From positions 85,966 to 149,965 of the forward strand of contig PVWP01000010.1 in the NCBI GenBank assembly GCA_003003925.1: a stretch of 64,000 nt of DNA, in the 5' to 3' direction. Of this stretch, positions 27,997 through 62,683 are shown in pieces. A program made the translations under genes and the position numbers. The stretch is from Aphanothece cf. minutissima CCALA 015. GTDB lineage: Bacteria > Cyanobacteriota > Cyanobacteriia > PCC-6307 > Cyanobiaceae. The notes beneath the pieces are model-generated. The model saw nothing but the letters and a program-made list of their open reading frames with translations, did not search any database and was not told the DNA's origin. Numbering within the stretch: position 1 is the stretch's first letter; each line of letters begins with the position of its first letter.

Positions 27997-28305
27997 TCAG
28001 GCGGCCTCCGGGCACCAGCCGGAGCTTCGCTGCCGGGGCTCGAGCCAGCTCGGACAGCGCTGGGTGAGATGGTCGCCGTGGCAGATCAGGGCCTGATGCC
28101 ACTGGCAGCTCAGCAGGGGGACGTCGTCGGCGCCGGCGTGGTGACGGAACCACTGGCAGGTGAGGCAGACGTGCCGGCTGCGGCTGGGGAGCAGCTGCTC
28201 GGGCCCCAGATAGGGCCAGGCGTCGCGGTGCGAAGCGGGGTGCGGTGCGTGGTGCGGTGCGGGATCTGGAGCGGGATCCGGAGCGGGGACTGGGAAGGAG
28301 GCCAT
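27997..28305 (-). CDS. Cys/His-rich small protein, probable SOS-regulated gene
   Basis: A 102-residue protein. The first 25 residues are a low-complexity run of Asp-Pro-Ala and His-Pro. The core has CLTCQWFRHH, then LLSCQWHQALICHGDHL and TQRCPSW, a spacing of Cys and His suggesting zinc binding. I do not recognise a named family, though the pattern of a Cys pair followed by HxxLIxHGxHL looks like a conserved cyanobacterial small protein. A LexA-type palindrome sits 14-27 bases before the ATG. The gene ends 60 bases upstream of the ABC operon. Confidence 0.65.
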   Translation of the reverse strand: MASFPVPAPDPAPDPAPHHAPHPASHRDAWPYLGPEQLLPSRSRHVCLTCQWFRHHAGADDVPLLSCQWHQALICHGDHLTQRCPSWLEPRQRSSGWCPEAA

Positions 28306-28318
28306 GGCCGCGGAAAAA

Positions 28319-28332
28319 GTACATCCGTACTA
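28319..28332 (-). promoter_or_regulatory. LexA-type SOS box
   Basis: Read on the minus strand the site is AGTACGGATGTACT, which fits the cyanobacterial LexA consensus RGTACNNNDGTWCB at every position. It ends 14 bases before the start codon of the Cys/His-rich gene, where LexA would block the promoter or early transcript. It differs at one base from the box near the umuD-like gene at 62670. Confidence 0.72.
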
Positions 28333-62159: not shown

Positions 62160-62651
62160 TCAATGACGCCGGGAGGGGGCGCCCGCCAGGTGATGCACGG
62201 CGTGGATCACGACCCCCCACAGCTCGGCACCACCGCCGTCGCTTCCCTCCGCGCCGCCCCCCTCGTCGCCGGTGAGCCGCAGGGGCGGACTGGTGCCGTC
62301 GCTGGCCACCAGCCACAGCGCACCGCCACGCCGGGCCAGCCGGCGCAGCAGGAAGGCGCCGGCATGCACCGCCACCACCACCATGCCGGGCCGGGGATCG
62401 ACGCTGCGGTCGATCACCAGCAGGTCGCCGTCGACGATGCCGTCGCCCCGCATGGCATCGCCGCTGACGCGCATGAAGAAGGTGGACAGCGGGCGGGGGA
62501 TCAGCTCCAGATTGAGGTCGATGCGGGCCTCCACGTAGTCGTCGGCGGGGCTGGGGAAACCGGCGCTGACCGCCTCCGTGGCCAGCAGGCAGAAGAGGGC
62601 CTCCGCCCCCTCCCGCAGGGGCAGCGGTGACTGGAGAGGCAGGGGACGCAT
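62160..62651 (-). CDS. UmuD-like protein lacking the catalytic Ser-Lys dyad
   Basis: This 163-residue protein matches UmuD: the cleavage-site context AGFPSPADDYVEARIDLN (Ala30-Gly31) and GIVDGDLLVIDRS are preserved. UmuD Ser60 lies in SGDSM, but here the sequence is SGDAM with Ala66 (codon GCC). UmuD Lys97 corresponds to Arg103 (FLLRRL). Spacing of 37 residues is the same, so both catalytic residues are replaced. The final third is Gly/Asp-rich. No umuC is next to it in this window. ATG 62651 is used; TTG 62666 is possible but abuts the LexA box. Confidence 0.87.
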   Translation of the reverse strand: MRPLPLQSPLPLREGAEALFCLLATEAVSAGFPSPADDYVEARIDLNLELIPRPLSTFFMRVSGDAMRGDGIVDGDLLVIDRSVDPRPGMVVVAVHAGAFLLRRLARRGGALWLVASDGTSPPLRLTGDEGGGAEGSDGGGAELWGVVIHAVHHLAGAPSRRH

Positions 62652-62669
62652 CGGCCCGGGAGTCAAAGC

Positions 62670-62683
62670 AGTACGGATGTTCT
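62670..62683 (+). promoter_or_regulatory. LexA-type SOS box
   Basis: AGTACGGATGTTCT matches the cyanobacterial LexA consensus RGTACNNNDGTWCB fully. It starts 19 bases upstream of the ATG of the umuD-like gene, on the opposite strand from that gene. It shares AGTACGGATGT with the box at 28319. Confidence 0.8.

Follow-up and report, generated by a model that had tools for sequence, protein, structure and literature searches.

A UmuD paralogue without its catalytic dyad and a second without its arm: a very probable complementary split of a self-cleaving SOS protein in cyanobacteria

Cleavage of UmuD is a textbook self-processing switch. What, then, is the role of a UmuD that has kept the bond to be cut and lost both of the residues that do the cutting? 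The question is raised by one gene in the window (the whole stretch of 64,000 nucleotides that was analysed), for whose product a sequence-only reading had offered three options: that it is held in an uncleaved form, that it is cleaved in trans, or that it acts as a decoy. Trans cleavage has emerged as the best supported of these, since the same genome encodes a second UmuD that is the mirror image of the first, with an active dyad and neither arm nor cleavage site. The uncleaved and decoy options keep lesser shares of the probability because some lineages have lost the active partner and kept the inactive copy. Below, the window protein and its orthologues are termed dead UmuD and the second protein armless UmuD, with residues of both numbered as in Escherichia coli UmuD unless the window protein itself is meant.

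The window gene

The open frame (Table 1) runs from an ATG at 62651 to a stop at 62162-62160. A TTG opens the same frame 15 bases further 5′, at 62666, and the ATG is the likelier start since the closest relatives, read by eye, have an ATG at the same place. Assignment to UmuD comes from several directions: Pfam PF00717 (Peptidase_S24; 3e-20, 72.5 bits against a cut-off of 23.3), NCBIfam NF007621 (the Pol V autoproteolytic subunit; 110.3 bits, just above the cut-off of 110), a phmmer search of PDB chains in which E. coli UmuD and UmuD′ are the best sequence match, and a fold search giving 1umu with a TM-score of 0.81 by target length. The protein is not HumD, the model for which (NF051876) gives 64.5 bits, under its cut-off of 120, nor is it LexA, whose model (TIGR00498) gives 53.6 against a cut-off of 110.95 and matches the C-terminal part alone. 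An Rfam scan of the DNA found tRNA alone.

Table 1. Features of the dead umuD locus in the window
Feature	Position	Strand	Evidence
Dead, predicted cleavable UmuD paralogue, 163 aa	62160..62651	-	Open reading frame; PF00717; NF007621; E. coli UmuD as best PDB match
Codons of Ala30-Gly31, predicted cleavage bond (P1-P1′)	62559..62564	-	Sequence; Gly in 60/60 and Ala in 56/60 dead copies
GCC, Ala66, in place of the catalytic Ser (E. coli Ser60)	62454..62456	-	PDB alignment; Ala in 60/60 dead copies
CGC, Arg103, in place of the catalytic Lys (E. coli Lys97)	62343..62345	-	PDB alignment; Arg in 60/60 dead copies
LexA box AGTACGGATGTTCT, just 5′ of dead umuD	62670..62683	.	Exact consensus match; box with at most 1 mismatch at 55/60 dead copies

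That both catalytic residues have been replaced, as the sequence-only reading had it, is borne out by alignment, with numbering from the ATG. phmmer pairs ‘sgdam’ of the window protein with ‘sgdsm’ of E. coli UmuD (8gmt and 1umu) and ‘fllrrl’ with the region of E. coli Lys97 (the 8gmt chain is itself altered at Lys97 and 1umu is unaltered), and the 37 residues from Ala66 to Arg103 are the same spacing as in E. coli UmuD. In the PDB alignment neither Ser nor Lys stands at either of the catalytic positions, and the wider alignment of homologues that had been recommended has Ala and Arg there in every one of the 60 cellular orthologues (a viral row being left out of this count). Misalignment of the catalytic residues is ruled out by the two alignments, and self-cleavage of the window protein is not to be expected since the Ser-Lys dyad is absent.

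The remainder of the earlier description also holds. The Ala-Gly cleavage site is intact within VSAGFPSPADDYVE, and the box 5′ of the gene matches exactly the consensus RGTACNNNDGTWCB, as given in passages of PMC3091678. There are four exact matches to that consensus in the 64-kb window against 0.07 expected by chance, and the dead umuD is predicted to be under LexA control. No umuC adjoins it: a search of the whole genome found one umuC, on a different contig (C4, the window being in C16), and it is the armless copy, not the window gene, that lies beside it. Elsewhere in the window, at 27997-28331, a 102-aa open frame bearing Cys and His residues lies just behind a consensus LexA box (28318-28331); the open frame has no Pfam match at E 0.01 and no PHROG match at E 0.001, and is a candidate unknown SOS gene.

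The likeness of the window protein to E. coli UmuD/UmuD′, the S24 manager of Pol V, thus extends to its fold, GFPSPA arm, apparent LexA control and the spacing of its catalytic positions. However, E. coli UmuD has both halves of the cleavage reaction in one chain, whereas the window protein has substitutes for Ser and Lys and is encoded apart from umuC.

The armless gene and the spread of the pair

A PF00717 search of the source genome finds three S24 proteins: LexA, which keeps its Ser and Lys, the window UmuD and the armless UmuD. The gene for the last directly precedes umuC, behind a LexA box of its own, so that the second umuD and the umuC for which a search of the rest of the genome had been proposed do exist. 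Its product has GDSM and TLKRL, that is an intact dyad, and AGFPSPADDYVE is absent from its open frame, as are the arm and the cleavage site. Could the arm be missing merely because the start was called wrongly? The position of the LexA box and the available start codons rule this out. In nine armless genes from nine relatives the box lies just 106-108 bases 5′ of the codon equivalent to E. coli Gly58, a distance that leaves no room for an arm, and in eight of them the single start between box and codon is an ATG 22 codons before Gly58; the ninth (G009) offers a GTG as well, 30 codons upstream of Gly58. Taken together, the two observations mean that the armless copies have neither the piece that is removed in E. 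coli nor the arm that UmuD′ keeps. No relic of FPSP was seen in the same frame 5′ of the 115-codon armless frames, with stops in view.

How widespread is the pair? Searches covered 99 relatives and then, with the window protein as query, 400 genomes of the family, 339 of which gave a match; the S24 domain was sought in a selection of 49 genomes and in each of the 42 available from the source's own genus (g1). The thresholds of the first-look searches were such that divergent copies may have been missed. Sequence was inspected for 152 fetched regions (one a repeat) and for the loci that searches returned, which, among the matches listed, amounts to 10 of 16 genomes in genus g75, 5 of 12 in g60, 3 of 6 in g77 and 2 of 3 in g89. 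Dead and armless UmuD occur together in 51 genomes of these five genera: 34 of the 42 in the own genus and, of the genomes read, 10/10 in g75, 3/5 in g60 (a part of that genus), 3/3 in g77 and 1/2 in g89. The 51 include G028, where a contig end cuts the armless gene with its Ser visible and its Lys beyond, and G007 (L065), inspected by eye and found to have Ser and Lys. Not one of the genomes read has the armless copy without the dead one, or a canonical UmuD together with either.

Canonical UmuD with both site and Ser is encoded by 28 genomes of the same family, with Lys in 27 of them and with Ser or Thr as the residue before the cleavage bond (P1) in two. The exception to Lys, a umuC-linked UmuD in genus g16 (L088, G056), combines Ser60 and a Ser-Gly site with Arg in place of Lys97. 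For two genomes, G048 and G127, neither a UmuD was recognised nor a UmuC match found, and the weak S24 matches in these and in G139, G107 and G109 do not match the UmuD profile. Spread outside the family was judged from 38 genomes of other families, with sequence inspected for 10; other families of the class contain umuC-linked UmuDs lacking both Ser and Lys, with GDRM and VVRRI in L104 (G065) and GDMV and LVLRV in L107 (G071).

The reciprocal losses are accompanied by strong conservation of what each copy has kept. LexA rows, fragments and the truncated rows L101, L155, L165 and L065 were dropped before residues were counted and the tree was built. In the arm of the dead copies Gly25, Phe26, Pro27, Ser28, Ala30, Asp32 and Tyr33 are present in 60/60 and Pro29 in 59/60, irrespective of whether the genome has an armless partner, and the armless copies have Ser60 and Lys97 in all 50 tabulated. 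Just as the dead genes mostly have a LexA box (Table 1), 48 of the 50 armless genes have one 5′ with no more than one mismatch. Nei-Gojobori dN/dS is 0.09-0.37 for the dead and 0.08-0.49 for the armless genes (16 close pairs of each, with few differences per pair), and both are under purifying selection. Within the own genus at least one of six window neighbours accompanies the dead gene at 40/40 loci, and in other genera at 0/20. At the g77 loci (L137-L139) the dead gene precedes the armless umuD-umuC pair by ~0.7-1.7 kb on the same strand, with a small open frame of opposite strand between the two umuD genes, an arrangement that fits what a tandem duplication could leave.

A UmuD tree from the core columns, leaving aside the arm and columns 60 and 97, unites the armless copies in one clade (SH-aLRT 99) beside the ordinary UmuDs of the family, and the cellular dead copies together with a third paralogue in another (SH-aLRT 98), so that few origins are needed, even if this was a quick search on 100 columns that left many forks open. 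The UmuC tree agrees with it in outline. The history is not fully clean in that two g60 genomes with canonical UmuD, G108 and G214, group among the split genomes on the UmuC tree. The third UmuD-like paralogue (L034 in G013, L036 in G040, L039 in G030, and L119, L179, L180 and L181 in g75) has neither site nor dyad, with GHGL, GHRL, GNGL, GNRL or GNGM at the one catalytic position and L[LM]RPL at the other; its place on the tree is in the dead clade or next to it, and a LexA-like box with one mismatch or none precedes it at 7/7 loci. That UmuD has undergone a complementary split is a conclusion of which we are very confident.

Substrate, protease and the genomes that lost the partner

What would the two halves do? 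In the scheme that we propose, duplication of an ancestral umuD was followed by the loss of a different half of the self-cleavage reaction from each copy: arm and cleavage site survive in the window copy at the expense of the Ser/Lys dyad, and the dyad survives in the umuC-linked copy at the expense of the arm. With LexA boxes before both genes, both should be made on DNA damage. The dead and armless proteins would then form a heterodimer with UmuC; on RecA-ssDNA the armless subunit would cleave its dead partner in trans, within the arm, and the Gly-Phe-Pro-Ser-Pro end so exposed on the dead subunit would enter UmuC beside the active site of the polymerase. The armless copy would thus be protease and tail-binder, and the dead copy substrate and arm donor. 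We infer the heterodimer, the trans cleavage and the division of roles on UmuC from the sequences and from the behaviour of the E. coli proteins, and do not hold the components with equal firmness. Membership of the dead protein in Pol V is probable, and cleavage of its arm by the armless subunit within a heterodimer is somewhat favoured. It is a more tentative suggestion that the UmuD dimer has become an obligate heterodimer, one gene serving as protease and partner of the UmuC tail and the other supplying the arm that is cut and inserted into UmuC.

Work on E. coli makes the components of trans cleavage plausible. According to passages of PMC5342242, an active UmuD with a shortened arm cuts the arm of UmuD S60A in trans, efficiently, in heterodimers with RecA-ssDNA in vitro. 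In the Pol V model as presented in parts of PMC11791011 and PMC12926913, one UmuD′ binds the UmuC tail and the other puts its arm beside the UmuC active site, and the former source also has it that an armless E. coli UmuD′ dimerises and cannot support mutagenesis. That the dead copies conserve their arm, with partner or without, is consistent with a need for it to enter UmuC. AlphaFold monomers have low confidence in the arm and are uninformative on its docking.

Against the scheme stand nine genomes with a umuC that no umuD adjoins (L157-L164 and L191; G001, G005, G018, G030, G031, G033, G036, G039 and G137). Eight are among the 42 of the own genus and G137 belongs to g89, and on the UmuC tree they fall into three or more lineages; the solo umuC begins ~70-120 bases after a LexA-like box with 0 or 1 mismatch. 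A complete dead UmuD is kept in seven of the nine; G036 has part of one, cut by a contig end, and G005, whose assembly is 84% complete, yielded none. Since it is kept in lineages that lost the armless copy, the dead protein has a role without that partner. The C-terminal tail of UmuC, which is reported to bind UmuD in E. coli, is retained in the split genomes and in all eight of the nine solo genomes that were aligned, which suggests that the dead protein is there a Pol V subunit by itself.

These seven dead copies also count against trans cleavage by an armless subunit, as three of them keep the Ala-Gly site, and the invariance of Ala60 and Arg97 in the dead copy itself is a warning that invariance need not mean catalysis. 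P1 is Ser or Thr in the other four, as against Ala in 52/52 dead copies with an armless partner (G100, with P1 Ala, 62% complete and with no umuC found, is omitted from this comparison). The difference is suggestive and no more, since only some two independent changes across three solo groups on the UmuC tree are involved, and Ser or Thr occurs in two canonical copies as well. LexA has been considered as a candidate protease for the dead copy in the solo genomes.

The chief rival of trans cleavage dispenses with proteolysis altogether: the dead copy would be a permanently uncleaved UmuD, serving as a checkpoint or brake, the armless copy a ready-made UmuD′-like subunit, and the ratio of the two products would replace the switch. 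That the dead copy outlasts the armless one in some genomes, and that its arm is conserved whether the partner is present or absent, sits comfortably with such fixed forms, as do partial accounts that in E. coli UmuD/UmuD′ heterodimers are preferred and their UmuD′ is degraded by ClpXP, with attenuation of mutagenesis. It is harder to see why 50/50 armless copies would then hold on to Ser60 and Lys97 with no site of their own to cut, or why P1 should be uniformly Ala where there is a partner; besides, even the stretch of arm still present in UmuD′ is missing from the armless copy, and UmuD′ without that stretch is reported to be mutagenesis-defective in E. coli. We regard fixed forms as unlikely, though the best placed of the rivals.

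A decoy or inhibitor that acts by poisoning UmuD dimers or by competition for RecA or UmuC, in place of a working Pol V subunit, is a poorer prospect still. A catalytically dead protein behind a LexA box could be of this sort, and a UmuD with the same two replacements is encoded on viral contigs, as a protein interfering with its host might be. Yet the UmuC tail persists in the eight aligned solo genomes, in which no arm-bearing UmuD was found besides the dead copy, and a protein whose sole function was to inhibit UmuD dimers would lack a target there (G030 also has a siteless third paralogue). As to a decaying pseudogene or neutral relic, loss of both catalytic residues is what might be expected of one, but the low dN/dS in 16 pairs, the open frame and conserved arm in 60/60 copies, the LexA boxes at 55/60 and the retained neighbour at 40/40 own-genus loci contradict it, and we give it almost no credence.

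Parallels and meaning

Phage P1 HumD is UmuD′-like. The alignment of the two opens with residue 31 of the window protein, which is the Gly immediately following the cleavage bond, and so HumD appears to keep the GFPSP arm, unlike the armless copy. The dead copy has counterparts in the UmuDs of four viral contigs (L115/L192, L116/L193, L194 and L195), two of which encode identical proteins: all four have Ser replaced by Ala and Lys by Arg together with an intact SAGFPSP. The gene in L115 (1544-2044) is followed by a SRAP gene (identified with Pfam), as are those in L116 and L194; none was seen in L195. The L115 protein has a long branch on the tree, at a distance from the cyanobacterial dead clade, and a dead but cleavable UmuD may have arisen twice.

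The engineered pair of PMC5342242, the arm-shortened UmuD 18 and UmuD S60A, is in the passages concerned a case of a subunit that hardly cuts itself cutting a dead one, and the natural pair is a candidate parallel, with the difference that the E. coli proteins are laboratory mutants whereas the natural states are fixed in separate genes across genera. Another parallel is provided by the duplicated PPB2 of PolB2 mutasome operons, of which, in the account excerpted from PMC11791011, likewise one copy alone keeps an N-terminal arm that enters the polymerase; it is, however, a different protein, and that account brings in no protease activity. The survey PMC5101192 mentions that umuD is duplicated in Cyanobium gracile PCC6307, in passages that do not speak of reciprocal states, and no report of a natural dead/armless pair was found in a literature search from whose reach subscription papers were mostly excluded.

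That the two UmuD′ of Pol V have different jobs rests, in those parts of PMC11791011, on a model set against published data. In the cyanobacteria considered here enzyme and substrate appear to have been parted in the course of evolution, as do arm-bearing and arm-free subunit, and the asymmetry of Pol V and trans cleavage would then be testable with wild-type proteins in place of mutants. The split is, besides, a clear example of how a single active site can undergo complementary degeneration. That a self-cleaving S24 switch was in this way turned into a two-gene pair of enzyme and substrate, by complementary loss after one duplication, is a proposition that we advance with slightly less than even confidence.
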